Source: Paenirhizobium cremeum (GTDB taxonomy: Bacteria; Pseudomonadota; Alphaproteobacteria; Rhizobiales; Rhizobiaceae). From it: DNA of 64,000 nucleotides. The stretch is taken from assembly GCF_022884085.1 (NCBI RefSeq), contig NZ_JAGGCS010000008.1, positions 62,001 to 126,000 on the forward strand, written 5' to 3'. Below the pieces are notes generated by a model that worked only from the letters and a program-made list of their open reading frames with translations, was not told the DNA's origin and ran no database searches. Positions 4,035-27,535 of this stretch are shown here, piece by piece. Both the position numbers and the translations under genes were made by a program. Positions within the stretch are counted from its first letter, which is position 1; every line of letters begins with the position of its first letter.

Positions 4035-4091
4035 CTTTTCACTCTAACGTCTTCTGGACGAAAGCTCCATAGTTCTCAAATTTACACATTA

Positions 4092-4128
4092 TAACTAATA
4101 TTGACAAATTAGTTACGATGCGTAGGAT
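4092..4128 (+). promoter_or_regulatory. gudD promoter with embedded inverted-repeat operator
   Basis: TAACTAAT (4092-4099) and ATTAGTTA (4108-4115) form a perfect inverted repeat with an 8-base spacer. The spacer and first bases of the right arm surround a -35 TTGACA (4101-4106), with TAGGAT (4123-4128) as -10 at 16 bases spacing. A repressor on the repeat would block polymerase. The divergent GntR protein is the natural candidate. Confidence 0.6.
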
Positions 4129-4191
4129 CGGGGCAGGTGATGAGGACATCTCTCTTTCTTGAGATGATTGGAATGACGGAGGAGGACCTAA

Positions 4192-5565: not shown

Positions 5566-5642
5566 CCGCCGAGAAGTAATGCCGTGTCGGCGCAAGCCGA
5601 AGCGGAACGGGAGACCAGCAACACTTAAGGAGGAGAAGTGGC

Positions 5643-6611
5643 ATGACGAAGAGGACACTACTGGGACTGGCCTTCGGCCTGACGATCGGCTTTGCGGCTC
5701 AACTGGTTTCGGCAAATGCGCAGGAACAGGTAACAATTATCGTTCCGTTCCCGCCGGGCGGCGCAACCGACACGACCGCGCGTTTTATCGAGCCGAAACT
5801 TTCTGCGACACTCGGGCAGCCGGTCGTCATCGACAACAGGCCGGGTGCCACCGGAGCCATCGGCGCAGGTCTCGTCGCTCAGGCCGCAGCGGATGGAAAG
5901 ACGCTGCTGGTCGCATCGCTCGGCACGTTTGCAACCAATCCCTTCCTGCAGAAGAACCTCTCCTACGATCCGCTCAAGGATTTCGACCTGCTCACAGTCG
6001 CGGTCAGCACGCCGAACGTCTTGGTGACGCATCCCGGCTTTAAAGCGACGACGGTTGAGGAGTTGGTCGCCACCATGAAGGAAAATCCGGATACCGTGAG
6101 CTTCGCCAATTCCGGTAATGGCTCGTCTGACCATTTGACGGCCGCACTCTTCTTCCAGGCGACAGACACGAAGGGCGTTCACGTCTCGTACAAGGGCGGG
6201 TCTGCTGCGCAGGCCGACCTGATCGGTGGTCATGTCGACGTTTCTTTCCAGAATCTTGGCGCGATCATCAATTACGTCAAGGAAGGGCAGATGAAAGCGC
6301 TGGCCCAGACGGGTGAAACCCGTCACCCGCTCCTTCCTGACGTACCGACGCTGACAGAACTTGGCTATAAGGACATCGTTGTCAGCGCCTGGCAGGGTGT
6401 TGCAGCGCCGAAAGGTCTGCCTGCCGAAACCAAGGCCAAGCTCAACGAAGGCCTCAAAGCAGCGCTCTCCGATCCGGACGTCATCGCCAAGTTCAACGAG
6501 ATCGGCTTCCAGGTCGTCGGAAATTCCAACGAGGAGTTCTCGGCCTTCCTTCAGGAGGATATGGCCCGCTGGAAGAACGTCATCGAAACCGGAAACATCA
6601 CAGCTGAATAA
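5643..6611 (+). CDS. tctC: Tripartite tricarboxylate transporter (TTT) periplasmic binding protein
   Basis: A 322-residue Bug/TctC-family solute receptor with a clear signal peptide (cleavage near residue 27, after SANAQ). The family hallmarks IIVPFPPGGATDTTAR (about 31-46) and IDNRPGATGAIGA (about 62) form the carboxylate-binding loops. The start follows AAGGAGGAGAAG. It lies between gudD and the tctB/tctA membrane genes, so I infer that it binds glucarate, galactarate or a related sugar acid rather than citrate. A stem-loop follows the gene (6620-6647), which could protect this cistron so that the receptor is made in excess. Confidence 0.93.
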   Translation: MTKRTLLGLAFGLTIGFAAQLVSANAQEQVTIIVPFPPGGATDTTARFIEPKLSATLGQPVVIDNRPGATGAIGAGLVAQAAADGKTLLVASLGTFATNPFLQKNLSYDPLKDFDLLTVAVSTPNVLVTHPGFKATTVEELVATMKENPDTVSFANSGNGSSDHLTAALFFQATDTKGVHVSYKGGSAAQADLIGGHVDVSFQNLGAIINYVKEGQMKALAQTGETRHPLLPDVPTLTELGYKDIVVSAWQGVAAPKGLPAETKAKLNEGLKAALSDPDVIAKFNEIGFQVVGNSNEEFSAFLQEDMARWKNVIETGNITAE

Positions 6612-6619
6612 GCTAGGCG

Positions 6620-6647
6620 GGCGTGGTCGCAGCACGGCGGCCACGCC
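6620..6647 (+). other. Stem-loop between tctC and tctB
   Basis: GGCGTGGTC (6620-6628) pairs with GGCCACGCC (6639-6647) with one wobble pair and a 10-base loop. No T tract follows, so an mRNA-stabilising or attenuating hairpin after the receptor gene is more likely than a full terminator. Confidence 0.5.
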
Positions 6648-6711
6648 TCCTCATATCGACAAACGTGGTGAGAGGTCTCTCAGGCCTGCCCGCTGCGAAG
6701 GGAGAAATGTG

Positions 6712-7176
6712 ATGCTTTCCTTTGTAAATGGACCGAAAGATTTCTGGGCCGGAATAGTCTACGTCTGCCTCGGCACAGGGTTTGCCCTCGTGGCCCGAGA
6801 CTATTCCCTGGGAACGGCAACAAGAATGGGTCCAGGCTATTTCCCGACCGTATTGGGAGGCCTCCTCGCATGCGTTGGTCTGATCTCGGTCGCCCGAGGG
6901 ATCACCCGCAGCGGAGAACCGCTGGAAGCGTTTGCCTGGCGGCCAGTCGTCTTCGTATCGCTCTCCCTCATCCTGTTTGCCGTTCTCCTGATGGGAGCCG
7001 GATTGATCCTTGCATTGGCAGCGCTCCTGCTCACCGCTCCGATGGCGGCGCAATCATTCAAGTATTCCGTCACCGGCGCGATGGCGGCGATCGCCCTGAT
7101 TGCATTTTGTGCGTTGGTCTTTGTCGAAGCGCTTGGGCTTCCATTGCCGTTGATCGGCAACTGGTTTGGAGGCTGA
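6712..7176 (+). CDS. tctB: TTT transporter small membrane subunit TctB
   Basis: A 154-residue protein with four predicted transmembrane helices. The N-terminal pattern DFWAGIVYVCLG...TRMGPGYFP is diagnostic of TctB. I chose the ATG at 6712 because GGGAGAAATGTG precedes it; the longer open frame has a non-hydrophobic, unrelated leader. TctB pairs with the large channel TctA and the receptor TctC, and the subunit order C-B-A is the family norm. It uses an ion gradient rather than ATP. Confidence 0.9.
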   Translation: MLSFVNGPKDFWAGIVYVCLGTGFALVARDYSLGTATRMGPGYFPTVLGGLLACVGLISVARGITRSGEPLEAFAWRPVVFVSLSLILFAVLLMGAGLILALAALLLTAPMAAQSFKYSVTGAMAAIALIAFCALVFVEALGLPLPLIGNWFGG

Positions 7177-7186
7177 GGGAACTGTG

Positions 7187-8686
7187 ATGGACTTTTCAGG
7201 GATCATCCTGGGCGCAACCGCGGCCTTCAGCGCCTATAATCTGCTGTATTGCCTGATCGGGTGCTTTCTCGGCACGGCTATCGGCGTTCTCCCCGGACTG
7301 GGGCCAGTCGCCACGATTTCGATGCTGCTGCCGATCACGTTCGGCCTTCCGCCCGAGACCGCCTTAATCATGCTGGCTGGCATTTTCTACGGCGCACAGT
7401 ATGGCGGCTCCACGACGGCAATTCTCGTCAATCTTCCGGGCGAAGCCTCCTCAGTGGTCACCGCTCTGGACGGCTACCAGATGGCTCGACAGGGAAAGGG
7501 GGGGCAGGCCCTTGCGACTGCTGCCATCGGATCCTTCATTGCCGGTACGCTGGCAACACTGCTGGTAGGGTTTGTCGCCCCGATCTTGTCCCTGTTCGCG
7601 CTTAAGTTCGGTCCTGCAGAATATTTTTCGCTGATGGTTCTCGGACTGATCGCGGCGATCGTTCTCGCTCATGGCTCGGTGCTGCATGCTTTCGGGATGA
7701 TGCTGCTTGGTCTGCTTCTTGGCCTTGTCGGAACGGACGTCAATTCCGGCGTGCAGCGCTTCACCGGTGGGACGCCGCAGCTTCTGGATGGCATAAGCTT
7801 TGTGATCGTTGCGATGGGCATATTCGGCATCGGCGAGATCATCGCCAATCTCGGTGACCGCAAAAGCGAAAACACGCAACTGGCCCAGATCACGAGACTG
7901 ATGCCGACCCTTTCCGAGCTTCGCGCCATGCTACCGCCGGTATTGAGAGGCACAGCCTTGGGCTCCGTTCTGGGCATCCTGCCGGGCGGAGGCGCGACGT
8001 TAGCTTCGTTCTCCGCCTATGCGCTGGAGAAGAAAGTCTCCTCGAAACCCGAAGAGTTCGGTCACGGGGCTTTGGCAGGACTTGCTGGCCCGGAATCGGC
8101 AAACAATGCCGCGGCACAAACCTCGTTCATTCCGATGCTGACGCTTGGTATCCCGTCGAACCCGGTCATGGCCCTGATGATCGGCGCGTTGATCATGCAG
8201 GGCATTCAGCCCGGCCCTTCGGTGATCCATGAACAGCCGATGCTGTTCTGGGCCATCGTGATCTCGATGTGGATCGGCAATGTCATGCTGCTGGTTTTGA
8301 ACCTGCCATTGATCGGGATCTGGGTCAAAATGATCTCGGTGCGCTACAGCCTGCTGTTCCCGGCGATCCTGGTGTTTTGCGCAGTCGGTGTGTTCAGCAT
8401 CAACAAGTCTCTTTTCGACGTCTACCTTATGGTCGGTTTTGGGCTCGCGGGTTACATGCTCCGCCGTCTGGATTGTGAACCCGCACCATTGCTGCTCGGC
8501 TTCATCCTGGGCCCGATGATGGAAGAATATCTTCGACGGGCCATGCTTCTCGCCAAAGGCGATCCGACTGTCTTCCTCACGCACCCCATCAGCGCGGTGA
8601 TGCTCCTGATTGCTGCGGTTCTTCTGCTGACTATGGCAGCACCGGCGGTCAGGCGCAAAAGGGAGGAAGCCTTCGTGGAGGAATAG
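7187..8686 (+). CDS. tctA: TTT transporter large permease subunit TctA
   Basis: A 499-residue polytopic membrane protein with about a dozen helices and the two TctA glycine motifs, GVLPGLGPVATISMLLP near residue 31 and GILPGGGATLASFSAYA near residue 265. I prefer the ATG at 7187, preceded by GGAGGCTGAGGGA; an in-frame TTG at 7166 lies inside the end of tctB. It should form the secondary-active channel of the sugar-acid importer. The neighbours gudD and kdgD make glucarate-type substrates likely, which differs from the well-known MFS glucarate permease GudP. Confidence 0.93.
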   Translation: MDFSGIILGATAAFSAYNLLYCLIGCFLGTAIGVLPGLGPVATISMLLPITFGLPPETALIMLAGIFYGAQYGGSTTAILVNLPGEASSVVTALDGYQMARQGKGGQALATAAIGSFIAGTLATLLVGFVAPILSLFALKFGPAEYFSLMVLGLIAAIVLAHGSVLHAFGMMLLGLLLGLVGTDVNSGVQRFTGGTPQLLDGISFVIVAMGIFGIGEIIANLGDRKSENTQLAQITRLMPTLSELRAMLPPVLRGTALGSVLGILPGGGATLASFSAYALEKKVSSKPEEFGHGALAGLAGPESANNAAAQTSFIPMLTLGIPSNPVMALMIGALIMQGIQPGPSVIHEQPMLFWAIVISMWIGNVMLLVLNLPLIGIWVKMISVRYSLLFPAILVFCAVGVFSINKSLFDVYLMVGFGLAGYMLRRLDCEPAPLLLGFILGPMMEEYLRRAMLLAKGDPTVFLTHPISAVMLLIAAVLLLTMAAPAVRRKREEAFVEE

Positions 8687-8700
8687 AATTCGGCGCCTGA

Positions 8701-9753
<1,053 letters not shown>

Positions 9754-9799
9754 AGTCCCGCATGCGCTTCTGGTGTGGGCGGTACAATACTTTTGCCTC

Positions 9800-9839
9800 A
9801 GCGATAACGCGTCGGGCACCAGTCCGACGCGTTATCGCT
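9800..9839. terminator. Long perfect palindrome downstream of kdgD
   Basis: AGCGATAACGCGTCGG (9800-9815) and CCGACGCGTTATCGCT (9824-9839) are perfect 16-base inverted arms with an 8-base loop, about 46 bases after the kdgD stop. No T tract follows on either strand, so it may be a factor-dependent terminator or mRNA end-protecting structure. Confidence 0.5.
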
Positions 9840-10091
9840 GCTGGTACAGTTCGCTCCGTGTACACACTTCCGACATGCTGCTTCAAACCAGTCTGCTGAT
9901 AAGCACTGTGGCCGCATTGCGCCGCATCTTGCTTGCCTTTTGCCGGCCGGAGTTTGCCAGCGATCAACTCAACCGTAATTGTTTCGGGATGGCTCCCTCC
10001 CAAACCGGTCGTTCTTTCGCAGATCGCGAACCTAAACAACTTTTTGTATGGCTAATTAAGGGATCGACGGTTCATATCTTTTCAAGACCTG

Positions 10092-10392
10092 ATGTTCGCT
10101 GCTTCATCGATCGATTTGTGGCGAAACTCGCAGGCGTGACGATTTCCTTCATGAGCAGGATGAAAGAGGTGGGGCTCGCCATGCCGGGCGATCTTTCGAT
10201 CGTTTCCTTCGATGGCTCGCCTGTCTGCGCCTTCTGCTCGCCGCCGCGATCGACGATCGAGCAGCCTACGGAAGAAATGGGTAAGACCGCCGTTGAAATG
10301 CTTCTTGAATCTATTGAGAATATGGAAAGCCCATCGCCCATGCGCAGGGTTATTCCCAGTCCCCTGATCGTTCGGGAGAGCAAGGCCGGTGA
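10092..10392 (+). pseudogene. C-terminal remnant of a LacI-family regulator
   Basis: Frame 2 encodes a stretch that reads as the end of a LacI-family effector domain: FMSRMKEVGLAMPGDLSIV, then SFDG, then a proline-rich turn with STIEQPTEEMGKTAVEMLL, and finally a PLIVRES end. Nothing upstream encodes the DNA-binding domain or the rest of the effector domain. The frame stays open past the remnant only because it runs antisense to the next LacI gene. It probably marks a deleted regulator of the glucarate operon or an older neighbour. There is no sign that it is translated. Confidence 0.7.
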
Positions 10393-10488
10393 TCCTGCAG
10401 CGGTTATTGTATCGTCCTCCATCGACGATCAGCGAATTCGTGGATTGAGGGGCATCCGCGTCCGTCCGCCCGAGGGCGATGAAGGTGC

Positions 10489-11568
10489 CTACTCCCTCGT
10501 CGTGATATCGCTCAAGGCAATACCGCGCGGCGGCGCGGTTGAGGCGCGGGGCACGAGATGGCATGCAAGCTCCACGCGCCGTGGCGGCGCCGGGATACCG
10601 GAGAGCGTGTCGCGCAGCAGGTCGAGCGCGACCGAGCCGATCTCGCGCATGGGAATATGCATCGTCGTAAGTGGCGGATTGAGGAACGCCGCCTGCGGCA
10701 GGTCGTCCATGCCCATCACCGAGACATCTCCCGGCACCGAAAAACCCTTCTGCTGGATGCCGAGCATGGCGCCCACTGCAAGACTGTCGCCGGCGGCCAG
10801 AACCGCGGTGAAATCCAGTCCCCGCTCGGCGATACGCTGCATGATCGCCTGCGTCGCCAGTTCCGGCAGCCAGTCCTCGACGGTCATGAGCAGGTCATCC
10901 GAAACGGGCAATCCCTTCGCCAGAAGCCCGTCGCGCCAGCCCTCGTAACGCCGCTCGATGGTCCGGCGCCCCGGCCGCATCAGAAACAGGATGCGCTCAT
11001 GTCCGAGTTCGGTCAGATGATCGGTGGCAAGCCGCGCGCTCGAGCGATTGCAGGGCGTTACGCTTGAAAGCCGCATGAAGGGATCGTCGCCGTTGAGCAG
11101 CACGACCGGCTTGTCGAAGCCGCTCGTCGCGGCGAGCATGTCTTCGTCGTCTATGGTGAGAAACAGCAGGCCGGCGACATTGTCGGTCTCCTGGGCCTCG
11201 GCGAGCACCGCCAGTTCCTCGCTCTGGTCCGCGATCGGCCGTGTGACGATTTCGAGGTCGAGAGCCTGAGCCCGTTCCTTCAGCCCTTCCAGCACGTAGT
11301 GGGTGAACTGGTTGCGCACATAGTCGATCATCGCGGCACTGGATGCGGCGACAATGACCTGCTGCCCGGCAACGGCCGTCGGTACGACGTAGTTGGCGTT
11401 CTTGGCCGCCTCCAGCACCCGTTGGCGGATTTCCGGACGGACGCCCTTTTCGCCGGCGAGCGCCCGCGACGCGGTGCTGAGCGACACGCCGCAGGTTTCG
11501 GCAATGTCCTCAAGTCTAACCCGCTTGCTTTTTTTTCCACGTTTGCCCGGCTGCGGTTTTGCAGTCAT
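10489..11568 (-). CDS. LacI-family transcriptional regulator of the pectin-oligomer operon
   Basis: A 359-residue repressor-type protein. The LacI helix-turn-helix is VRLEDIAETCGVSLSTASRA (about residues 17-36) with the hinge-helix region after it, then a periplasmic-binding-protein-like effector domain ending in PLTTMHIPMREIGSVA. I placed the start at 11568 because GGAGGACCCA sits just before that ATG; a longer frame reaches 11751 but has no matching leader. It is divergent from the GH105-kduI operon, and a TTGCGCAA palindrome lies between them. It most likely represses that operon until pectin-derived oligomers appear. Confidence 0.9.
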   Translation of the reverse strand: MTAKPQPGKRGKKSKRVRLEDIAETCGVSLSTASRALAGEKGVRPEIRQRVLEAAKNANYVVPTAVAGQQVIVAASSAAMIDYVRNQFTHYVLEGLKERAQALDLEIVTRPIADQSEELAVLAEAQETDNVAGLLFLTIDDEDMLAATSGFDKPVVLLNGDDPFMRLSSVTPCNRSSARLATDHLTELGHERILFLMRPGRRTIERRYEGWRDGLLAKGLPVSDDLLMTVEDWLPELATQAIMQRIAERGLDFTAVLAAGDSLAVGAMLGIQQKGFSVPGDVSVMGMDDLPQAAFLNPPLTTMHIPMREIGSVALDLLRDTLSGIPAPPRRVELACHLVPRASTAPPRGIALSDITTRE

Positions 11569-11604
11569 TGGGTCCTCCATTGCGACAGAATGAGAAAAAT
11601 TTTC

Positions 11605-11618
11605 ATGTTGCGCAAGAA
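11605..11618. promoter_or_regulatory. Candidate LacI-family operator
   Basis: The perfect palindrome TTGCGCAA (11608-11615), with the central CG typical of LacI-family sites, lies in the 115-base gap between the LacI gene and the GH105 gene. A second AT-rich palindrome, GAAAAATTTTC, is at 11594-11604. Which of the two is bound is not known. Confidence 0.4.
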
Positions 11619-11683
11619 AAATCTTCATGCCTTTAATCGCTCCAACAGACCGACGGAAGAGCGGCATAAAACGGAGGAGCACC

Positions 11684-12784
11684 ATGGGCCCGAACGCCCA
11701 CGACATTCGCATGGGTCTCGATCGTCTTGTCGGCGGCATGACCGGCCTCAAGCATGACGGCCGGTTCGTCGAGCCGAACCTTGACGGAACCGCGGGCGAC
11801 TATATCAGCTTCGACAGTTGGGAATGGCCCCAAGGCGTCGGCCTTTATGGCCTAATCCGGCTCTGGCTGTTCACCGGTCGCGGCGATCTGCGCCAGTTGA
11901 TCGAGGGCTGGTACGAGGCAAGGCTCGCTGCCGGCCTTCCGGAGCTCAATGTCAACACGACAGCGCCGATGCTCGGACTTTCGGTGCTCTGGGCGAAGAC
12001 GGGTGATCCGCGCTGGAAACCGCTTCTCGACGACTGGGCGGACCGTGTGATCGGAGAGATGGGACGCACCTCGGAAGGCGGTTTCGAACACCACGTTTCC
12101 GACAAGGTCAACGACAACGAACTCTGGGACGACACGCTCTACATGGTTGCGCTGTTTCTGGCCTCTTATGGCCAGGCAAGCGGCCGGCGCGAACTCGTCG
12201 ACGAGGCCTCGCGGCAATTTCTCGTGCATGCCCGTTATCTCGCGGACACCCATTCCGGCCTCTGGTTTCACGGTTGGACCTTCGACGGCCGGCATAATTT
12301 CGCAAGGGCCCGCTGGGCGCGCGGTAACGCCTGGATCACTGCTGGCATGCTCGACTTCTTCGACCTCGCCGAGATTGCGGTCCCGGTCAAACAATATCTG
12401 CTTGGCGTGCTCGTCACCCAGGTCGAGGCGCTGCTGCCATTGCAGACCGCATCCGGCGCCTGGCGCACGCTTCTCGACGACACCACGTCCTACGAGGAAA
12501 TATCCGCGACAGCCGGCATCGGCTACGGCCTGCTCAAAGGCTATCGCCTGGGCTACGGCATGCCGGCCTGGCGCGCTGCCGGTCTCCGGGCGCTTGAGGC
12601 GGTGATGCGCAACATCGACGAAAGCGGCACCGTGCTCAACGTCTCCTACGGCACCCGCATGGGCCACGACCTGCAATTCTACAAGGACATTCCCATTCAG
12701 CCGACCGGCTACGGCCAGGCATTGGCAATCCTGTGCCTGTCGGAAGCCTTGCACCATGTTGGCGAGCAAGGACAGGCAGCATGA
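11684..12784 (+). CDS. Unsaturated rhamnogalacturonyl hydrolase (GH105/GH88-type)
   Basis: A 366-residue (alpha/alpha)6-barrel glycoside hydrolase. It removes the unsaturated uronic acid left at the non-reducing end of pectic oligomers by lyases. Family marks are the acidic pair in ELWDDTLYMV, the WARGNAWI motif, and SATAGIGYGLLKG. No signal peptide is seen, so it acts on imported oligomers in the cytoplasm. The ATG at 11684 has ACGGAGGAGC upstream. It is first in the operon and overlaps kduI by ATGA. KduI, the next gene product, processes the released 4-deoxy-5-keto-uronate. GH105 rather than GH88 is favoured by overall similarity to YteR/YesR. Confidence 0.88.
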   Translation: MGPNAHDIRMGLDRLVGGMTGLKHDGRFVEPNLDGTAGDYISFDSWEWPQGVGLYGLIRLWLFTGRGDLRQLIEGWYEARLAAGLPELNVNTTAPMLGLSVLWAKTGDPRWKPLLDDWADRVIGEMGRTSEGGFEHHVSDKVNDNELWDDTLYMVALFLASYGQASGRRELVDEASRQFLVHARYLADTHSGLWFHGWTFDGRHNFARARWARGNAWITAGMLDFFDLAEIAVPVKQYLLGVLVTQVEALLPLQTASGAWRTLLDDTTSYEEISATAGIGYGLLKGYRLGYGMPAWRAAGLRALEAVMRNIDESGTVLNVSYGTRMGHDLQFYKDIPIQPTGYGQALAILCLSEALHHVGEQGQAA

Positions 12785-13617
12785 CGATGAAGGTTCTCTA
12801 CGGGGCGAACCCCGATGACATCAAGGCTTTTGACACGCAGCGCCTGCGCCGCGAGTTCCTGGTAAGCGATCTCTTCATGCAGGACGCAGTGAGCTTCACC
12901 TACACCCATGTCGACCGGCTGATCCTTGGCGGCGCGATGCCGATGACCGGGAGCGTATCCTTCGGGTCGGGCGCCGATATCGGAACGCCCTTTCTGCTTT
13001 CCGCCCGCGAAATGGGTATTGCCAATCTCGGCGGCACCGGCACCGCCACCGTCGACGGAAAGAGCTTCGTGCTTGAAAACCGCGACGTTCTCTATGTCGG
13101 GCGCGGCGCGCAGGAAGTCGTCGTTGCCAGCCATGCCGCCGACAAGCCGGCGCGCTTCTACATGAACTCCGTGCCGGCCGGCGCGGACCTGCCGCACCGG
13201 CTGGTCAAGAAGGCCGAGGCAAAGGCGATTGAACTCGGAGACGCCAAGCGCTCGAACAAGCGCCGTCTCGCCATGTACATCCATCCGGAAGTGATGCCGT
13301 CCTGCCTGCTCTTGATGGGCATTACCGATCTTGCCGAAGGCAGCGCGTGGAACACCATGCCGCCGCATGTGCACGAGCGACGGATGGAGGCTTACTGCTA
13401 TTTCGACATGGCGCCCGAAGACCGGATCGTCCACCTGATGGGCCAGCCGGAAGAGACACGGCACCTGATCGTCGCCGATGGCGATGCGGTGCTTTCGCCC
13501 GCCTGGTCGATCCACATGGGCGCCGGCACCGGACCCTATGCCTTCGTTTGGGGCATGACCGGTGAGAACCAGGAATACAACGACGTCACCCCCGTAGCCT
13601 TGGCTGAACTGAAATGA
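12781..13617 (+). CDS. kduI: 5-keto-4-deoxyuronate isomerase
   Basis: A 278-residue cupin-type isomerase of the same length as E. coli KduI. It converts 5-keto-4-deoxyuronate to 2,5-diketo-3-deoxygluconate. The zinc ligands are in place: H196, H198 and E203 in PPHVHERRMEAY and H245 in SPAWSIHMG, the same numbers as in E. coli. The start is in an ATGA overlap with the GH105 gene, and the stop overlaps the next start in the same way, so all three are coupled. KduD, which catalyses the next step, is at the far end of the operon. Confidence 0.96.
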   Translation: MTMKVLYGANPDDIKAFDTQRLRREFLVSDLFMQDAVSFTYTHVDRLILGGAMPMTGSVSFGSGADIGTPFLLSAREMGIANLGGTGTATVDGKSFVLENRDVLYVGRGAQEVVVASHAADKPARFYMNSVPAGADLPHRLVKKAEAKAIELGDAKRSNKRRLAMYIHPEVMPSCLLLMGITDLAEGSAWNTMPPHVHERRMEAYCYFDMAPEDRIVHLMGQPEETRHLIVADGDAVLSPAWSIHMGAGTGPYAFVWGMTGENQEYNDVTPVALAELK

Positions 13618-16100
13618 CCGATATGACTTTCCATATGAAGAAGAGCCTCGTTGCGGGGCAAGCGATCAGCTACTGGCAACTCGGCACGATTGCCGAGGAG
13701 CGCTTCGATGTGCCCGACCAGCCGATGAAGGGCGAAATGGACCCCTTCTTCTTCCTGACCAAGCACAAGAACTTCATTCCGCACGAATATCCCTGCCGCA
13801 CGATCTTTGCCGAACGGTATCGCGACAAGCGGCCCGAGGTGCGTGGTTCGTTTGAAGCCAGCCGCTGGTGGCTGCCCTTCGGTTCGCCGCGTCTCGATCT
13901 TTCCGGCTTCTGGTTCCGGCCGACGCGGCTTGCCACCTGGGCTCGCACCTCTATCGAGGCCGACACCGCAGGGCCGGCGACGGTCCGCCTCGGCACCTGC
14001 GGCGGTGCGGTGATCTGGCTGAACGGCGCTGAAGTCGGCTGGATGGCGCCCTATAGCCGTAACCTCGAGGCCAAGGCGGAATTCGAACTGCCGCTCAAGG
14101 CCGGTCTCAACGAGATCACGATCTTCTTCGACGACCTTGCCGAACGGGACGCCCGCTATTTCTTCGAACTCGACTATCTCGACGGACCGACCGCGCGCGT
14201 CGCGTTGCCTGTTCCCTGCCAGAGTGCGGCGGCCGCGGATATCGAAACCGCGCTCGACGGCATGCATTTCGATCGCACCGCCTATTTCGAGGGTGATATC
14301 ACACTCAACTTCGCCAAGGCACTGCCGCTAGACGTCAAGGTCAATGTGGCGGTCGAAGGCGACTTCATGTCGACGGAGCGCTTCGACCACGACTTTGTCG
14401 TGAAGGCCGGCGACACGAGGCTGACGGTCGGTCCGTCGGAAGAGACGCCGGCAGATTTCCGCCATTTCCGCATCACGCTCGACGCCGGCGGTTTCGTCGC
14501 CTCGCGCTCGCTCGGTGTCGAAATCTGCCATGCCGGACGCCAGGGCACCCCCCCAGAAACGCTTGCCGGCCGTATTCGCGAAACGCTTGACGAAATCTCC
14601 GGTTTTTCCGAGCGGGATACGGTGCGGGCCTTTGCACGGCTTGCCAGCGGTCGCGGCGGCGCCGACACCGACGCGATGATCGAGGAGATCCTTCCCTCGA
14701 TCGAGGACTGCCACGACTGCGCCGACTTTTCGCTCGTGCCGCTGATCTGGTCGCGCACAGTCTGGGGCCGCGACATCGGCGAGCGGACCCGCGACCGCAT
14801 CGACCAGGCGATCCTGAATTTCCGCTACTGGATGGATGAGCCCGGCAATGACGTGCAGTGGTATTTTTCCGAGAACCACGCGCTGCTGTTCCACACCTCG
14901 GCCTATCTCGCCGGCCATCTTTTCCCCGAGGCGACCTTCCGGCGTTCGGGGCGCAAGGGACGCGAGCAAAGCGCCGTCGGCGCCGAACGGGTTCGCGCCT
15001 GGCTTGATCATTTCGAGGCGTGGGAAATGGCGGAATTCAACTCCGCGCCCTATTTCCCGATCGACCTCAAGGGCCTGACGGCGCTCGCGGCGCTCTCGCC
15101 CGATGCCGATATCGCCGAACGGGCGAATAAGGGCATTGTCCGGCTGTGCGAGATCATCGCCCGCTCCGCCCATCACGGCATGGTCACGGCTGCTCAGGGG
15201 CGCTCCTACGAGCACACGCTCTGCGCCGGTCGTTCGCTCGAGCTTTCGGGTGTGGCCCGCCTGCTCTGGGGCCGGGGCTGGTATGGCCGCCGTGTGCACG
15301 CGCTGCCGCAGCTTGCCGTCTGCCTTCGCGATCATGGCCTCGTCGTGCCGGAAGCGCTTGCCGCGGTTGCCTGCCATGAAAACGAGGACACCCACCAGGA
15401 ATGGCGCTTTGCCCAGGGCGAAAACCGCTTCGCGGCGCTTTACCATTACAAGGGTCGCCACTTCGCCATCGGATCGGCGGCGCATTATCGCTGGAACGAA
15501 TGGGGTTACCAGGAAACGGTGCTGCACCTGAGGCTTGGTGAGCGTCCGGAAGCGGCGATCTGGATTAACCATCCGGGCGAAACCATTCAGTTCGGGTACG
15601 GCCGGCCCTCCTATTGGGGTGGTTGCGGCACCCTCCCACGTGCCCACCAGTATAGGGGGCTGGCCGTACTCGATTTTGTCACCGTTCGCGAGCAGCCGGA
15701 TTTCACCCATGCGTGGTTCCCGGTCGCCGAGTTCGACGAGAGCAGGGTCGAGGGCAGGCTTGCGCTTGCCCGCAGCGGCCGAGGTGCCGTCGCCCTGATC
15801 GGCGGTGGTGAACTGGTGCCGGTCACCGATGGTCCGTCGACGAATGCGGAGTTGCGTCAATCCGGCCACAGGACGCGATGGATCGTGCGGGTCTGCGAAG
15901 CCGAAGAACTCGGCGACGTCAAAGCCAGGTTCGCCGCGCTCGCGGTCGAGGAAACCGCCGATGGCGCCTTCGTCGTCGACGACCCCGAATACGGCCGGGT
16001 CGTCTTTCATGGCGACGGCAGGACGGAAGCCGAGGGGCGCACGCTTATCGCCAGGGATTTCACCGTAATAGGCGAGGTTACAATGTTGCCCGCCGCCTAG
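13614..16100 (+). CDS. Large unassigned protein of the pectin-oligomer operon
   Basis: An 828-residue protein I cannot assign to a named family. No signal peptide is seen, so it is probably cytoplasmic. The first third looks like a beta-sandwich (VIWLNGAEVGW, then LKAGLNEITIFFDD, a pattern seen in jelly-roll domains of large glycosidases). The middle resembles an alpha-helical toroid with aromatic/acidic motifs WYFSENHALLFH (from W416, with E420 and H422) and SYEHTLCAGRSLEL (Y532, E533, H534). The tail is again beta-rich. Its place between kduI and the importer genes, coupled by ATGA, suggests a glycoside hydrolase or polysaccharide lyase acting on imported oligomers. A binding or debranching role is also possible. 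Confidence 0.75.
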   Translation: MTDMTFHMKKSLVAGQAISYWQLGTIAEERFDVPDQPMKGEMDPFFFLTKHKNFIPHEYPCRTIFAERYRDKRPEVRGSFEASRWWLPFGSPRLDLSGFWFRPTRLATWARTSIEADTAGPATVRLGTCGGAVIWLNGAEVGWMAPYSRNLEAKAEFELPLKAGLNEITIFFDDLAERDARYFFELDYLDGPTARVALPVPCQSAAAADIETALDGMHFDRTAYFEGDITLNFAKALPLDVKVNVAVEGDFMSTERFDHDFVVKAGDTRLTVGPSEETPADFRHFRITLDAGGFVASRSLGVEICHAGRQGTPPETLAGRIRETLDEISGFSERDTVRAFARLASGRGGADTDAMIEEILPSIEDCHDCADFSLVPLIWSRTVWGRDIGERTRDRIDQAILNFRYWMDEPGNDVQWYFSENHALLFHTSAYLAGHLFPEATFRRSGRKGREQSAVGAERVRAWLDHFEAWEMAEFNSAPYFPIDLKGLTALAALSPDADIAERANKGIVRLCEIIARSAHHGMVTAAQGRSYEHTLCAGRSLELSGVARLLWGRGWYGRRVHALPQLAVCLRDHGLVVPEALAAVACHENEDTHQEWRFAQGENRFAALYHYKGRHFAIGSAAHYRWNEWGYQETVLHLRLGERPEAAIWINHPGETIQFGYGRPSYWGGCGTLPRAHQYRGLAVLDFVTVREQPDFTHAWFPVAEFDESRVEGRLALARSGRGAVALIGGGELVPVTDGPSTNAELRQSGHRTRWIVRVCEAEELGDVKARFAALAVEETADGAFVVDDPEYGRVVFHGDGRTEAEGRTLIARDFTVIGEVTMLPAA

Positions 16101-16189: not shown

Positions 16190-17458
16190 ATGACCAAGAC
16201 CAGAACAATGCTCGCGGCTCTTGCCGTCGGGCTGATGACATCGACGGCAGCGATCGCCGGCGACGTGCGCATCATGTGGTATTCCGATGGCGTCGAGGGC
16301 GAGGTGCTGAAGGATCTGCTCGATCGCTTCATGAAGGAAAACCCCGACATCAAGGTGACGCTCGACAACGTTTCCTACAGCGTCGTCCGGGAGCAACTGC
16401 CGGTACAGCTCGAAGCCGGCAACGGGCCGGATATCGCCCGTGTCACCAACCTCAAAGCCCTCAGCCAGCACTGGTTGGACCTGAGGCCGCTGGTCGCCGA
16501 TCCCGCCTATTGGGACGAGAATTTCGGTGGACAGGCCGATTGGATGCGTCCAGATGGCACCAATCAGATTTCCGGCTTCATGACGCAGATCACGATTGCC
16601 GGAGGCTTCGCCAACAAGACGCTGTTCGACCAGGCCGGCGTTCCGATCCCGGGCAAGGACGCGACCTGGGACGATTGGGCGAAGGCTGCAAAGCAGGTCG
16701 CGGAAAGCCAGCAGGTTCCCTTCCCGATGGCTCTTGATCGGTCCGGCCATCGTCTCAGCGGTCCGAACCTTGCCTATGGCGGCAACTATATCGGCGCCGA
16801 CGGCAAGCCGGCACCGCTCGACGAGGGCTCGAAGAATTTCCTCAAAACCTTTGTCGGCTGGGTTGCCGACGGCACGATGAGCAAGGATGTCTGGGTTTCT
16901 GCGGCCGGTTCGACCTATCGCGCCGCCGCCGACGACTTCATCAACGGTCAGCTCGTCTATTATTACTCCGGCTCCTGGCAGGTTCCGAACTTCTCGACGA
17001 AGATTGGCACCAACTTCGACTGGGTTGCGACCGGCAGCCCCTGTGGCCCCGCCAACTGCACCGGCATGACCGGCGGCGCGGGATTGGTTGCAGTCAAATA
17101 CACCAAAAACCCGAAGGACGTCGCCAAGGTGATGGACTACCTCGCGAGCGAGGCCGTGGTGAAGGAGTTCTCCGAGCGCACCCTGTTCCTGCCGGCGCAT
17201 AAGGGAGTCCTTGCCAAGGGGCTCGACTTCAAGACCGACGATGCCCAGGCAAAGGCGGCCCTCAACGCCTTCGTCGAGGCGAGCAAGTCGCTCTCCGAGC
17301 TCGCACGCAAGCTGCCCGGATGGCACTGGTCCGACACCTTCTACGGCGCGCTCGTCACCCGCGTCAGCCAGGCGGCTGCGGGCGAGATGGAGATTGACGA
17401 GGCGTTCAAGCGCATCGACTCCGATATCGCGGCAAAGGTGAAGGATTCCGGGAACTGA
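16190..17458 (+). CDS. ABC sugar transporter periplasmic binding protein
   Basis: A 422-residue family-1 extracellular solute-binding protein with a signal peptide ending near residue 23 (TAAIAG). Typical features are the early IMWYSDGVEGEVLKDLLDRF segment, the hinge EAGNGPDIARVTN, and a C-terminal lobe rich in lysine and aromatic residues. The ATG at 16190 has AAGAGGAGGAAGACA before it. It follows the large unassigned gene and precedes two permease genes and an ATPase gene. I infer it captures unsaturated galacturonan or rhamnogalacturonan oligomers. Two stem-loops follow the gene. Confidence 0.9.
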   Translation: MTKTRTMLAALAVGLMTSTAAIAGDVRIMWYSDGVEGEVLKDLLDRFMKENPDIKVTLDNVSYSVVREQLPVQLEAGNGPDIARVTNLKALSQHWLDLRPLVADPAYWDENFGGQADWMRPDGTNQISGFMTQITIAGGFANKTLFDQAGVPIPGKDATWDDWAKAAKQVAESQQVPFPMALDRSGHRLSGPNLAYGGNYIGADGKPAPLDEGSKNFLKTFVGWVADGTMSKDVWVSAAGSTYRAAADDFINGQLVYYYSGSWQVPNFSTKIGTNFDWVATGSPCGPANCTGMTGGAGLVAVKYTKNPKDVAKVMDYLASEAVVKEFSERTLFLPAHKGVLAKGLDFKTDDAQAKAALNAFVEASKSLSELARKLPGWHWSDTFYGALVTRVSQAAAGEMEIDEAFKRIDSDIAAKVKDSGN

Positions 17459-17703: not shown

Positions 17704-18732
17704 ATGAAGGCAGATGTACCAATACGAAGTGGCCCCGGCCTCGGCGAAGCGGCCATGATGCCCTTTCGCCTCCTGATGGGCGCCATCGATGCGCCGTTGC
17801 GCTGGGTGCAGCGACGGCTTGGCATCGGTGGTATGGCGACCTTCTTCCTGCTGCCGAACATGCTGATCTTCGGCGTTTTCGTGCTGCTGCCGTTTTTCAT
17901 CAACTTTGCCTATTCCATGACAGGGGGCACCGCGCTCTTCCTGTCGGACAGGAGCTTCGTCGGCGGCGAGCAATATGCGCGCCTGTTCGACTGCGTGAAT
18001 TACACCGATCCGAACAGCTGCACCGAGGACACCTTCTGGACCGCCGTCGGCAATACGGCCTGGTTTGTCGTGCTTCAGGTCAGCCTGATGATCCTTTTCT
18101 CGCTGGTGACCGCCCTGATCCTCAACCGCGATCTGATGGCGCGCAGTTTCTGGCGGGCGGTCTTCTTCTTTCCCGTGCTGCTCTCGCCCGTGGTCGTTGG
18201 CCTCATCTGGAAGTGGATTTTGCAGCGCCAGGGCCTGCTCAATTTCGGTCTCTACAGCCTGGGCTTCGAGCCCTATACCTGGCTCAACGATCGCAACTGG
18301 TCCTTTGCCGCGACTGTCGGTGTCTCGATCTGGGCGCATATGGGTTTCTACACGCTGATCCTGCTGGCCGGCCTCCAGGCTATCCCGAAGGATCTCTACG
18401 AGGCGGCTGAAATGGACGGCACCCGCCCGGCGCGCGCCTTCTGGCGGATTACGCTGCCGCTTTTGATGCCCAACCTGCTCGTCGTCGTTGTGCTCGTCCT
18501 GATCCGGGCGGTGCAGATATTCGACGAGGTCTATGTGCTGACCGGAGGCGGACCGGGCACCAGCACGCTCTATCTCACCCAGTATATCTACGAGACGGGC
18601 TTTGCCACGCAGTTGCGCAATCCCGGCCTTGCCGCGGCGGCTTCGATCCTGATGGGCATCGTGCTGGTGATCCTCACCCTGGTCCAGCTTGGCCTCGGCC
18701 GCAAAGGCGAGAAGAAGGGAGCCCGCAAATGA
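17704..18732 (+). CDS. ABC sugar transporter permease (MalF type)
   Basis: A 342-residue inner-membrane protein with a cytoplasmic leader of about 40 residues and six predicted helices. The EAA loop that contacts the ATPase is EAAEMDGTRPARAFWRITLP, starting near residue 233. A periplasmic loop between helices 1 and 2 contains two cysteines (FDCVNYTDPNSCTED) that could pair. The start follows GAGGAGGCTGCA. It overlaps the next permease gene by four bases (ATGA) and should form a heterodimer with it. Confidence 0.92.
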   Translation: MKADVPIRSGPGLGEAAMMPFRLLMGAIDAPLRWVQRRLGIGGMATFFLLPNMLIFGVFVLLPFFINFAYSMTGGTALFLSDRSFVGGEQYARLFDCVNYTDPNSCTEDTFWTAVGNTAWFVVLQVSLMILFSLVTALILNRDLMARSFWRAVFFFPVLLSPVVVGLIWKWILQRQGLLNFGLYSLGFEPYTWLNDRNWSFAATVGVSIWAHMGFYTLILLAGLQAIPKDLYEAAEMDGTRPARAFWRITLPLLMPNLLVVVVLVLIRAVQIFDEVYVLTGGGPGTSTLYLTQYIYETGFATQLRNPGLAAAASILMGIVLVILTLVQLGLGRKGEKKGARK

Positions 18733-19781
18733 ACCGTGTAGTCGAGTTTGTCTTTCGCCGCCGCGGCGGTCGGGGCTGGCACTGGACCGATATCTTCACC
18801 TGGGTCTGGCTGATCGGCGGCCTGTTCGTCATGTTCGGCCCGGCGGTCTGGCTCGTCGGCTCATCGTTCAAGTCGCCGGCCGCCCTTGCCGAATTCCCGC
18901 CGACGATCATGCCCTATGTGACGCAGAAGGCGACCGTAGAAGGCTACGACAAGCCGCTCGACCTTTACGAGGTGACGCTGCCCGACGGCAGCAAGACAGT
19001 GCTCGCCGAGGTACGCCGCATCGGCATCGTCAGCCAGATGGTTGCGCCGGACAAGCCGACCGAGATCGTCAAGGTCAACATCGCCGAGCGGACGCCAGTG
19101 CGCACCATGTCCTTCGCGACGAACAACTACACGGAGCCTTTCACCCATTTCGATTTTGTCCGTTATCTCTGGAACTCGGTCTTCGTCACGGTGACGGCGA
19201 CACTGATTACGCTGGTGGTCAATTCGATGGCCGCCTTCGCGCTCAGCAAATACGAGTTTCGCGGCCGAACCTTCGCCATGCTCCTGATCCTCGCGACCCT
19301 GATGGTGCCCCTGTCGGTGATTATGGTGCCGCTTTACTCGATCGTCTCGGCACTCGGCCTGTTCAACAATCTCTGGGGTGTCATTCTGCCGACGGTGGCC
19401 ACGCCGACGGGGGTCTTCATCCTGCGCCAATACATGCTGACCATCCCCGACGAGCTGATCGATGCGGCACGCATGGACAAGGCCTCGGAATGGCAGATCT
19501 ACTGGCGCATCGTCCTGCCGCTGACCGCGCCGGCGCTTGCCGTGCTTGCGATCTTTTCCATCGTCTGGCGCTGGAACGACTTCCTCTGGCCGTTGATCGT
19601 GCTGTCGCGCAAGGAACTCTACACGCTGCAGGTCGGACTCAGCATCTATTCGGGCGAACTGAACGTCCAGTGGCATTTCATCCTCGCCATGACCGTGGTG
19701 ACGATGATCCCGGTCGTCCTGGTCTTCATTTTCCTGCAACGCTTCATCACCACCGGCATCGCCGGCACCGGACTGAAATAA
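18729..19781 (+). CDS. ABC sugar transporter permease (MalG type) with periplasmic insert
   Basis: A 350-residue partner permease, longer than the usual 270-290. The first helix (about 25-42) is followed by a polar insert of roughly 85-90 residues before helix 2. The insert reads like a small beta-rich periplasmic domain (segments such as [20 protein letters not shown]). The EAA loop is [20 protein letters not shown]. Start and stop arrangements couple it to the upstream permease and, across a 10-base gap, to the ATPase. Similar long MalG homologues exist in rhizobial pectin-oligomer importers, as far as I recall; the insert may contact the binding protein. Confidence 0.9.
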
Positions 19782-19791
19782 GGGGGGCACC

Positions 19792-20877
19792 ATGGGCCAC
19801 ATCCAGCTAACCAACGTGACCAAGTCTTTCGGCGCCATCGACGTGCTTCATGACATCAACCTGGAGATCAAGGACGGTGAATTCGTCGTTTTCGTTGGGC
19901 CTTCGGGCTGTGGCAAGTCGACGCTCCTGCGCATGATCGCCGGCCTGGAGAAGCCGAGCGGCGGCGAACTTGCGATCGACGGCAAGGTCGTCAACGACGT
20001 GCCGGCCGCCGACCGGGGTCTTGCCATGGTCTTTCAATCCTACGCGCTCTATCCGCATATGAGTGTGCGCCAGAACCTCGCCTTTGGCCTCGAAAACACC
20101 CGGATGCCGAAGGGGGAAATTGCCGAGCGCATCGCCGAAGCCGCGCGCATGCTCGAGATTGAACCCTATCTCGATCGCCGACCCGGCCAGCTTTCCGGCG
20201 GCCAGCGGCAGCGCGTTGCAATCGGCCGCGCGATCGTTCGGCGCCCCGTCGCCTTCCTGCTCGACGAGCCGCTGTCGAATCTCGACGCGGAGTTGCGCGG
20301 CTCCACCCGCGCGGAGCTCGCTGCCTTGCACGCACGCCTCTCGGCGACGATGATCTATGTGACGCACGATCAGGTCGAAGCGATGACGCTCGCCGACCGG
20401 ATCGTGGTCTTGCGCGCCGGCCGTATCGAGCAGATCGGGACGCCGATCGAACTCTATAACCGGCCGGCCAATCGGTTCGTCGCCGGCTTCATCGGCTCGC
20501 CCCATATGAACTTCCTCGAAGGCACGCTCGAAGCGGTGAACGACGACACGGCGGTCGCGACACTCAAGGGGGGCCACCGGCTTCAGGTTCCGGTCCGGGG
20601 CGGTATGGTTGCCGCCGGATCGCCTGTGACCGTGGGCGTTCGACCGCAGCACATCACCCTTGAGCGCGGTGAAAACAGCATTCCCGCGACGGTCCGCCTC
20701 GTCGAGGCGCTCGGCCACGAAACCGTGTTGCATGCCGATGTCGCAGGCCAGAAACTTTTAGTGGTCGCCCCAGGCCAACACGACCTCGCGCCGGGCGCCG
20801 ACATCAATCTATCGCTGGCCGCCGCCCCCATCCATCTTTTCGACGATAAGGGAATTCGCCTTGAATACGCTGTTTGA
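19792..20877 (+). CDS. ABC sugar transporter ATP-binding protein (MsmX/UgpC type)
   Basis: A 361-residue ATPase with Walker [10 protein letters not shown] (36-44), signature LSGGQRQRV, Walker [12 protein letters not shown] and a C-terminal OB-like regulatory domain of the MalK/UgpC class (about 235-361). It energises the two permeases upstream. Its 3' end overlaps kduD by 17 bases in another frame, so transport and catabolism are translated from one message. Confidence 0.93.
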
Positions 20878-21619
20878 CCTCACCGGCAAGACCGCCCTCG
20901 TGACCGGGGCGCGGACAGGCCTCGGCCAAGGCATGGCGCTCGCGCTGGCGCGGGCCGGCGCCGATATAACGGCGCTCGGTTCGTCGCCGATGCCGGAAAC
21001 GGCAAGCCTGGTCCGGGAAGCCGGCAGGCGATTTCACAGCCTGATTGTCGACCTCTCCAAACCCTTCGATACGTCCGCGATCGTCACCGAAGTCTCGGCA
21101 GCATTCGGTGGTGTCGACATCCTCGTCAACAATGCCGGCATCATCCGCCGCAGCGACCTGCTCGACTACTCCGAGCAGGACTGGGACAGCGTGCTCGACG
21201 TCAACCTGAAGGCCGCCTTCCTGCTGTCGCAGGCGGTTGCGCGGCACATGGTCTCGACCGCGCGTGCGGGACGAATCATCAATGTCGCCTCCATGCTGAC
21301 ATTCCAGGGTGGAATTCGCGTGCCCGCTTATGCCGCGTCGAAGCATGGTATCGCCGGCCTCACCAAGGCCATGGCCAACGAATTGGCGCCCCATGGCATT
21401 ACCGTGAATGCCGTCGCGCCAGGTTATATGGCGACCGACAACACGGAAGCGTTGCGCAACGATCCAGAGCGCAATGCGCAAATCTCCGCTCGTATTCCGA
21501 TGGGACGCTGGGGAACGCCGGACGACCTGGCGACCGGGGTGATCTTCTTCGCCGCGCCGGCCTCCGGTTACGTCACCGGCACCGTGCTGCCGGTCGATGG
21601 CGGCTGGCTGGTCCGCTAG
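20861..21619 (+). CDS. kduD: 2-dehydro-3-deoxy-D-gluconate 5-dehydrogenase (KduD)
   Basis: A 252-residue short-chain dehydrogenase that interconverts 2,5-diketo-3-deoxygluconate and 2-keto-3-deoxygluconate, the step after KduI. The nucleotide loop is [10 protein letters not shown] (15-24), followed by NNAG, then Y157 and K161 in YAASKHG; the segments [15 protein letters not shown] and [11 protein letters not shown] match E. coli KduD closely. The start is a TTG inside the ATPase gene: it gives the family-length N-terminus, has ATAAGGGA upstream, and no ATG fits before the nucleotide loop. The rare start and overlap may hold its level below that of the transporter ATPase. It ends the operon. 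Confidence 0.94.
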
Positions 21620-21737: not shown

Positions 21738-22880
21738 TCACCAATCCAATTGCGCCAGATTGTGGAGGATCATCGCGGCGGCTCCGAACGCGACCGCATC
21801 TGTGGCCGAGACCTCTGGCAGCAAAAGCTCCGGCTGAACGACGCGCGCCCCGTCGAACGGATCGGAGTTGGCGAAATCCAGCCAACGGAGGAGTTGCTCG
21901 CGCACCAGGCGCGGTAGCGTCCCCCCGATATAGATGGCGGAGGGGGCGAGGATTGCGGTGACCGCAAAGGCCAAGCGTGCTGTTTCCGGTCCCGCGCGCT
22001 CAAGCCAGGTGTCGAGAACGGTCCGGTGGGCGGTCAGATAATCCATCCAGGATTCAGGCGATCGGCCGGTCGGAACATGACCGATGTGGCCGGCGCACCA
22101 TTCGGCAAGATCCTCAAACGAGGGCCTCGACAAACCACGAGGGCGCAACGCTCCGATCTCGCCGGCATTACCGAAATTGCCTCGATAAAGCTCCCTGTCG
22201 ATGATGATGCCGCTTCCGATACCCTCCGAGAGATAGAGATAGACAAAGTTTTCGTGGCCGACGCTGTTGCCGAGCGTGAATTCCCCCATGGCGGCGGCAT
22301 TCGCATCGTTTTCGATGACAACCGGACAGCCAAGCGCCTGACGCAGCGAAATGTTCAGGTCCGATCCGGCCCAGGATATCACCTCCTGCGCAAGATCGAG
22401 GCTCGCGGTGCCCCGCCGGAAACGGGTCGGCATGGCTATGCCCGCGCCAATCAGCAGGTCGCCTGCAATCTTGTTTCTGCCAAGCAGTTCTTCCTTGCCC
22501 TCTTGGATCTTCGATTGAACATCGGCGAAAGTGTCGTAGCTCCCCGGCAATTGCAGTTCGCCCACCATCTCGCCGCTGAAATCAAGCAGGGTGAGCGTGA
22601 CCATGAAACGGTTCGCATGGGCTCCGAGAGCGTAACCGACTGAGGGATCGAGCGTGAGATCGATATGCGGCGCTCCGCGGCCGGCCTGACGGCGGGCGCC
22701 TTCCACCACAATCCCGCGCTCGATGAGATCGCGCGTCATCATGCTGACGGCCGCCGCGGTCACGCCGCAGAGCTCGGCGATTTCGGCGCGTGATGCGGAC
22801 CGTTTGCGGCGAAGATAGCGCAGTACGGCTGCCTGGGTATTCCCTATTCCGTCAAAAGGCATGCGTCTGTCAGTTGCCAC
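21738..22880 (-). CDS. ROK-family transcriptional regulator
   Basis: A 380-residue protein with an N-terminal winged helix (about 15-75: SRAEIAELCGVTAAAVSMMTRDL) fused to a sugar-kinase-like ROK domain (IENDANAAAMGE, then EGIGSGIIID). The zinc-binding cysteine cluster usual in ROK proteins is absent: the region after GNFGNAGEIGALRPRG lacks cysteines. It is therefore more likely a regulator than an active kinase. The start is GTG at 22880 or ATG at 22862. It is divergent from the ABC importer operon beginning at 22974 and most likely represses it. Confidence 0.88.
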   Translation of the reverse strand: MATDRRMPFDGIGNTQAAVLRYLRRKRSASRAEIAELCGVTAAAVSMMTRDLIERGIVVEGARRQAGRGAPHIDLTLDPSVGYALGAHANRFMVTLTLLDFSGEMVGELQLPGSYDTFADVQSKIQEGKEELLGRNKIAGDLLIGAGIAMPTRFRRGTASLDLAQEVISWAGSDLNISLRQALGCPVVIENDANAAAMGEFTLGNSVGHENFVYLYLSEGIGSGIIIDRELYRGNFGNAGEIGALRPRGLSRPSFEDLAEWCAGHIGHVPTGRSPESWMDYLTAHRTVLDTWLERAGPETARLAFAVTAILAPSAIYIGGTLPRLVREQLLRWLDFANSDPFDGARVVQPELLLPEVSATDAVAFGAAAMILHNLAQLDW

Positions 22881-22927
22881 GATCCGCTCTCCACATCACG
22901 GGATCGGCGATGTCATACTCTCGTTAC

Positions 22928-22940
22928 TTAAGCAACTTAA
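22928..22940. promoter_or_regulatory. Candidate ROK operator
   Basis: TTAAG-CAA-CTTAA is a perfect 5+5 inverted repeat in an AT-rich 93-base gap between the ROK gene and the binding-protein gene it faces. AT-rich palindromes are typical of NagC/Mlc-class targets. No convincing -10/-35 pair could be fixed. Confidence 0.4.
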
Positions 22941-22973
22941 TTAAATAAAAATCATCAACCGGATTGACGCACC

Positions 22974-24347: not shown

Positions 24348-24363
24348 GCCAGGTCGCGATCCC

Positions 24364-24390
24364 TGCCGTCCGGCCCCGAGTCGGACGGCA
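24364..24390 (+). other. Stem-loop after the second binding-protein gene
   Basis: TGCCGTCCG (24364-24372) and CGGACGGCA (24382-24390) are perfect 9-base arms with a 9-base loop, followed by TCGACTTTTC. It lies between the binding protein and its permeases and could attenuate read-through so that the receptor outnumbers the channel. Confidence 0.6.
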
Positions 24391-24414
24391 TCGACTTTTC
24401 ACCGGTATTCCAGA

Positions 24415-26405: not shown

Positions 26406-26410
26406 CAATC

Positions 26411-27523: not shown

Positions 27524-27535
27524 CAGGATTTTTCA

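Follow-up and report, generated by a model that had tools for sequence, protein, structure and literature searches.

A candidate toroid-fold lyase that accompanies GH105 hydrolases in uronate operons of rhizobia and other bacteria

A 64,000-nucleotide stretch of Paenirhizobium cremeum DNA (assembly GCF_022884085.1, contig NZ_JAGGCS010000008.1, positions 62,001 to 126,000; hereafter the window) carries an open reading frame (ORF) of 828 amino acids, free of internal stops, at 13614-16100 of the forward strand. Structure models, a conserved residue set and the gene neighborhood indicate that its product is probably an enzyme of the cytoplasm that works by beta-elimination, belongs by fold class to the toroid-type polysaccharide lyases (PL) and acts just before a hydrolase of glycoside hydrolase (GH) family 105 in the degradation of acidic sugars from plants or similar sources. 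An oligosaccharide lyase, in which a sugar leaves, is the most likely form of this activity and is favored over a dehydratase. GH105 enzymes act on an unsaturated uronyl end (PMC8511951), and their pairing with this gene would be explained by a cytoplasmic eliminating enzyme placed just before them. An earlier reading made from the sequence alone had proposed a new carbohydrate-active family in unsaturated-uronate catabolism, which both fold and neighborhood support.

The ORF is a real, intact and conserved gene and not a chance frame, because 217 of the 218 pattern-matching stretches in a contig collection encode a relative of its protein. The best 80 of these 217 relatives are 62-90% identical.

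Predicted structure and conserved residues

Structure prediction, which the sequence-only reading had proposed as a check, placed the protein in the toroid-type lyase fold class, and the beta-sandwich-like start, toroid-like middle and beta-rich tail described there agree with the models. The AlphaFold model of the whole protein reached a predicted local distance difference test score (pLDDT) of 80.5 and a predicted template modeling score (pTM) of 0.83, and a domain model of residues 306-828 reached 86.2 and 0.88. This domain is predicted to form an (alpha/alpha)n toroid followed by an antiparallel beta-sheet, as in polysaccharide lyases. When it was compared with the PDB by Foldseek, 18 chains were found at E≤0.001: 17 toroid-type lyase chains (PL8, PL12, PL15, PL17, PL33, PL35 and one chondroitinase) and the lyase-like dermatan sulfate epimerase. 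These PL numbers are in part those we take the entries to have and in part those of entry titles or PMC12088678. An unrelated chain, cellulose synthase subunit C, ranks amid the lyases (E 2.0e-3), and the first toroid glycosidase in the list is a GH78 (E 3.7e-3).

The same domain was compared by VIA, and 49 of the 50 rows among the matches listed were lyases, the remaining row being the dermatan sulfate epimerase. The best match was 8khw (Z 12.0, root mean square deviation (rmsd) 6.8, 381 aligned), followed by 9o3q (Z 11.8, rmsd 7.7, 373 aligned); the epimerase 6hzn gave Z 10.9, rmsd 6.5 and 431 aligned. With the whole model, VIA placed residues 315-814 on PL8 hyaluronate lyase (Z 11.7, rmsd 5.6, 434 aligned) and residues 13-191 on the sugar-binding domain of the GH2 glucuronidase 4jkm (Z 9.9, rmsd 3.1, 123 aligned). 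GH2 alignments extended to about residue 305 had an rmsd of 13-14, which leaves a kinship of the second beta domain with GH2 less than firm. The protein thus resembles GH2 beta-glucuronidases in its first domain and differs from them in having no triosephosphate isomerase (TIM) barrel. The lyase fold was revealed only by VIA and by the 306-828 domain model, not by whole-protein Foldseek, whose top 50 among the matches listed were filled by GH2 enzymes with TM-scores of 0.09-0.15.

Residue conservation was analyzed in a 111-row alignment of members. Twelve rows are full-length proteins of the family f187 picked through the SENH motif, which biases these rows toward N421-H422. The other 99 were obtained by tblastn as ORFs of at least 500 amino acids and include the window protein, a broken gene (L056) and a 661-residue protein (L109); shortened forms were excluded. 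Invariant positions (111/111) include W416, E420, N421, H422, F426, H427, E474, S477, Y480, D484, R530, Y532, Q633, N652, H653, W668 and H699. Two segments had looked conserved in the single sequence. The first, WYFSENHALLFH, proved so, since W416, E420, N421, H422, F426 and H427 never vary; the second, SYEHTLCAGRSLEL, is conserved in part, with Y532 in 111/111 and L536, E543 and L544 in 110/111.

Moreover, the N-H and E..S..Y residues correspond to a motif of heparinase II/III-type proteins. Against a pooled profile of 40 such proteins, 121 columns were aligned, which placed NH over NH and E..S..Y over E.S..Y. The score was 28.5, whereas the highest among 48 scored controls was 25.4; 18 diverged heparinase-type proteins gave a profile score of 27.7. 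Motif order and spacing matched, with E-to-Y one residue longer in the 828-residue family and a weak score for the register. The motif of a heparinase-type protein was itself found to align with the solved heparinase III. Table 4 of PMC12088678 lists the catalytic Asn/Tyr/His as 240/294/424 in PL12, 201/258/413 in PL17, 192/246/401 in PL35, 186/239/405 in PL39 and 336/390/555 in PL15, so that Asn and Tyr lie 53-57 apart, compared with 59 for N421 and Y480. In the enzymes of that table the His follows the Asn by about 184-219 residues; in the 828-residue family, position 632 stands at +211 and the invariant H653 at +232. The account of a PL17 enzyme in PMC4765187 gives Asn and His as neutralizers, another His as base and Tyr as acid.

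No named family was assigned to the protein, in agreement with the sequence-only reading. The 828-residue protein gave nothing above cut-off in Pfam and no NCBIfam match at E≤1. Its weak Pfam matches below cut-off were Pentapeptide_3 (E 0.018) and BetaGal_gal-bd (E 0.13), the latter in agreement with the GH2-like N-terminal domain. Thirteen diverse members scanned singly gave no NCBIfam match at E≤0.01, their Pfam matches were weak and scattered (e.g., PA14 in 2/13, best E 0.0005), and neither they nor the 828-residue protein matched the heparinase II/III hidden Markov models PF07940 and PF16889 at E≤1. A single-sequence search of PDB sequences found five unrelated chains only (E 0.86-1.4). 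Profile searches of the same sequences with a 79-member and a 13-member alignment found no match at E≤10, PL17, PL12, PL15, PL35 and PL8 included. The 79-row alignment leaves out L056, whose match is split in two, and L053, which has a stop at codon 825; the alignment A3 holds 70 of the 79. The model PF08124 (PL8 N), tried as a test, matched nothing anywhere, controls included, and was uninformative. In the window genome, a profile search gave one match for PF07940 and none for PF16889. Among the matches listed from open-access PMC articles, no title or abstract beginning dealt with the gene or its family.

Judged against Pfam, NCBIfam and PDB sequences rather than CAZy, the protein probably represents a new family of sugar-acid lyases and, on its modeled fold, probably a new relative of known toroid-type lyases. 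It resembles toroid plus beta-sheet lyases (PL17 Alg17c, PL35 GAGases, PL12 heparinase III, PL15, PL21, PL33 and PL8) in the predicted 306-828 fold and in having the elements Asn(-His) and E-x-S-x-Tyr, whose order is the same and whose spacing is similar. It is unlike them in lacking Pfam (E≤1) and profile-based PDB-sequence (E≤10) matches, in its GH2-like N-terminal domain, in a third catalytic His that is not clearly kept, and in its pairing with GH105 and often KduI.

Partnership with GH105 and distribution

Of the best 80 rhizobial loci, the GH105 count covered the 77 with at least 4 kb of upstream sequence, which left out L056, L063 and L073. A GH105 gene was found near the gene in 94 of the 111 assessable loci, which are not independent lineages; the distance is at most 1.2 kb in 92 of them and about 6 kb in the other two, L162 and L163. 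GH105 and KduI are both encoded upstream in 62 of the 77 assessable rhizobial loci. Among 16 further loci GH105 was present in 15 and KduI in 5, L169 holding only a fragment that resembles a GH105 start, and all 17 f187 loci have GH105. The importers vary, with an ATP-binding cassette (ABC) type in 80 rhizobial loci, a tripartite ATP-independent periplasmic (TRAP) transporter plus LamB porin in L162 and an MFS_2 carrier in L112. Since importer type and KduI both vary among loci, GH105 is the constant partner, more than either of them. A second operon of GH28 and GH105 type, with no relative of the 828-residue protein, was seen at L198 (genome G000, contig 3, 61000-80000).

Members of the family were found in Alpha- and Gammaproteobacteria, and a single relative is archaeal. 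With the window's own genome included, relatives were detected in 31/199 genomes of the same taxonomic family and 9/398 of the same phylum; in the same class, the window's own genome was the only one of 289. In family f187, 34/392 genomes match by profile, some with shortened or broken forms, and 17 places in 16 of these 34 genomes were examined. Relatives are carried by 200 of 72,556 plasmid records. The 39 pattern matches in viral contigs included no relative, and a search of E. coli complete genomes with the DNA of two f187 relatives gave no match. By identity alone, relatives fall into a nearer group (at least 50% identity to the 828-residue protein) and a farther one (about 28-34%). The most distant is a 661-residue protein of the archaeon Haladaptatus (L109, 9791-11776), without the N-terminal domains. 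This gene, a catalytic module only, lies amid Gfo/Idh/MocA oxidoreductases and sugar isomerases, and neither GH105 nor KduI was found at its locus by the same search.

Proposed reaction and competing explanations

In the proposed pathway, an imported uronic-acid oligosaccharide would be the substrate in the cytoplasm. N421, together with H422, would neutralize the uronic acid carboxylate. The C5 proton would be abstracted by a base, which may be the residue at 632, H653 or H422, and Y480 may protonate the leaving group at C4. The non-reducing end of the product would then be a 4,5-unsaturated uronyl residue, to be hydrolyzed by the neighboring GH105, and the 5-keto-4-deoxyuronate released would then pass to KduI and on to KduD. 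The sequence-only reading had suggested cleavage of side chains or rhamnogalacturonan backbones after import; this is sharpened here to a probable beta-elimination that feeds GH105, and a rhamnogalacturonan or pectic substrate was not demonstrated. GH28 adjoining farther-group genes (L111) is a pointer to pectic oligomers as the substrate; arabinogalactan caps or exopolysaccharide oligomers are also possible.

PL22 oligogalacturonate lyase is cytoplasmic and works upstream of KduI, the position proposed here. Unlike it, the 828-residue protein has no PF14583 match (E≤1), and no PL22 match was found in the window genome. PL26 exo-rhamnogalacturonan lyase and the rhamnose-glucuronate lyases PL27 and PL42 would supply GH105 with substrates by acting on rhamnogalacturonan or arabinogalactan caps. 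None of PL26, PL27 and PL42 appeared among the fold or PDB-sequence matches listed.

Several observations weigh against an eliminating enzyme of this kind. The 18 best Foldseek chains had TM-scores of only 0.31-0.43, with large rmsd and middling Z values; the resemblance is therefore to a fold class and not membership of one family. The active-site loops 169-174, 222-234 and 352-364 of the domain model have a pLDDT <50. The pooled heparinase profile match is weak alone (probability 3%, E 0.014): it vanishes with the 22 PF16889-selected proteins on their own (score 19.7), and the alignment to 30 strong PF07940 proteins from Rhizobiaceae spanned just 15 columns and was not meaningful (score 18.2). 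With Tyr at position 632 in 90/111 rows, His in 20/111 and Phe in 1/111, conservation of the usual catalytic His is not clear. In 15 of the 77 assessable rhizobial loci the gene is kept with neither GH105 nor KduI in the stretch. These belong to Rhizobium species usually assigned to the leguminosarum/etli group; in one of them, Rhizobium johnstonii 3841, another replicon carries a farther-group gene together with GH105 and a GH28-like gene. None of the 17 f187 stretches examined has KduI, yet it is present in L161 of the same family. Lastly, two shortened relatives (L222 and L224) keep N421-H422, E474 and a Tyr without the beta domain, and have lost S477.

The shortened form occurs in five f187 loci (L221-L225), lacks the second and the C-terminal beta domains, and is adjoined by GH105 in 5/5. 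In L221 and L223 (346 and 386 amino acids) the N421-H422 or the Y480 region is lost. As to whether the motif requires the complete module, the four shortened relatives compared give mixed evidence. Additionally, a further protein of 556-557 amino acids, possibly a replacement enzyme, adjoins the shortened relative in L221-L223; its L221 copy had no Pfam match at E≤0.1.

An oligosaccharide dehydratase would perform the same elimination with water leaving, turning a saturated uronic acid cap into an unsaturated one for GH105. This explanation is unlikely, although it fits the GH105 pairing and no other glycosidase was found among the scanned operon genes of the window. To our knowledge no toroid-fold dehydratase has been solved, which counts against it. 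Both readings are kept because a dehydratase can also make the unsaturated end: according to its description in PMC8511951, P29_PDnc of ulvan degradation works with a GH105, and the 828-residue protein would likewise supply an unsaturated uronyl cap to its own GH105 neighbor. However, P29_PDnc is set apart by that same description, in which activity was killed by changes of Asp, Arg and Lys and not by the one Tyr change, Y306F, a catalytic set unlike the N-H/Y residues. A new polysaccharide lyase family acting as a cytoplasmic oligosaccharide dehydratase on a toroid lyase fold is likewise unlikely. With such an enzyme, bacteria that have no suitable glucuronidase or galacturonidase could use saturated oligomers through GH105.

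A toroid-fold glycoside hydrolase (glucuronidase or galacturonidase), trimming oligosaccharides before or after GH105, appears improbable. The GH2-like N-terminal domain, the invariance of E474 and D484, and the presence of GH78, GH9 and GH146 lower in the Foldseek list would suit it, but these toroid glycosidases score far below the lyases, and the invariant set holds the N-H and Y of lyases. Fold and motif together are those of toroid-type lyases, and a beta-eliminating enzyme is therefore likelier than a glycosidase. Finally, a uronyl C5-epimerase of imported oligosaccharides is very improbable: dermatan sulfate epimerase 1 has this fold (6hzn was the eighth Foldseek and third VIA match), but the unsaturated residue attacked by GH105 has no C5 stereocenter, and an epimerase offers no clear reason for the frequent pairing.

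The operon, its surroundings and biological meaning

The operon has the order GH105-kduI-828-residue gene-ABC importer-kduD, its neighbors being named by Pfam and NCBIfam matches (Table 1). The kduI stop is shared with the start of the ORF in a 4-base overlap (gaaATGAcc, 13614-13617), as expected from the translational coupling noted in the sequence-only reading, which had also recognized the importer genes downstream. No signal peptide was seen on inspection of the sequence by eye, again as read before.

Table 1. Coordinates of the operon genes in the window and of motifs and domains in the 828-residue protein.
Feature	Position	Strand	Basis or remark
LacI-family regulator, divergent, upstream of GH105 gene	10489-11751	-	Pfam
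Glyco_hydro_88 (GH88/GH105-type) unsaturated uronyl hydrolase	11627-12784	+	Pfam/NCBIfam; closest PDB relatives named GH105
KduI, 5-dehydro-4-deoxy-D-glucuronate isomerase	12781-13617	+	Pfam/NCBIfam; first ATG overlaps GH105 stop
N421-H422 codons	14874-14879	+	Candidate carboxylate neutralizer, His possible base; invariance, profile alignment, table of PMC12088678
E474-Y480 codons (E-F-N-S-A-P-Y)	15033-15053	+	Y480 candidate general acid; invariance and profile alignment
ABC importer sugar-binding protein (SBP)	16190-17458	+	Pfam/NCBIfam
Two ABC (BPD) permeases	17704-19781	+	Pfam/NCBIfam
MalK-type ABC ATPase	19792-20877	+	Pfam/NCBIfam
KduD, 2-dehydro-3-deoxy-D-gluconate 5-dehydrogenase	20861-21619	+	Pfam/NCBIfam
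GH2-like sugar-binding domain	residues about 13-191		Structure model and VIA
Further beta domain	residues about 205-305		Structure model
(alpha/alpha) toroid	residues about 315-590		Structure model
Antiparallel beta-sheet domain	residues about 593-826		Structure model

The true start of the GH105-type ORF is probably near 11687, and that of the LacI-family ORF probably nearer 11577, because its helix-turn-helix begins only at residue 80. NCBIfam labels the GH105-type protein as the equivalog 'beta-galactosidase BglB' (538 bits against a cut-off of 420), a name which conflicts with a uronate operon and whose origin was not traceable in the literature.

The operon is adjoined at 3318-9753 by genes for an FCD regulator, an enolase-superfamily (MR_MLE) protein, a TctA transporter and a DHDPS-family enzyme, a cluster that looks like sugar-diacid (glucarate-type) catabolism. 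Residues 121-203 of the ORF at 9773-10945 match only the end of a LacI-type ligand domain (Peripla_BP_3), and this ORF is likely the remnant of a second regulator. On the other side, 21738-28258 encodes a ROK regulator followed by a second binding protein of sugar type and, beyond it, a GDPD phosphodiesterase; the ORFs between them look permease- and ATPase-like.

The source of the unsaturated uronyl end for GH105 inside the cell is often unclear. This family, with its genes near GH105 in most of the loci examined and irrespective of the importer, offers a direct candidate for that step in rhizobia and some Gammaproteobacteria. Genes at present annotated as hypothetical would thereby receive a name.

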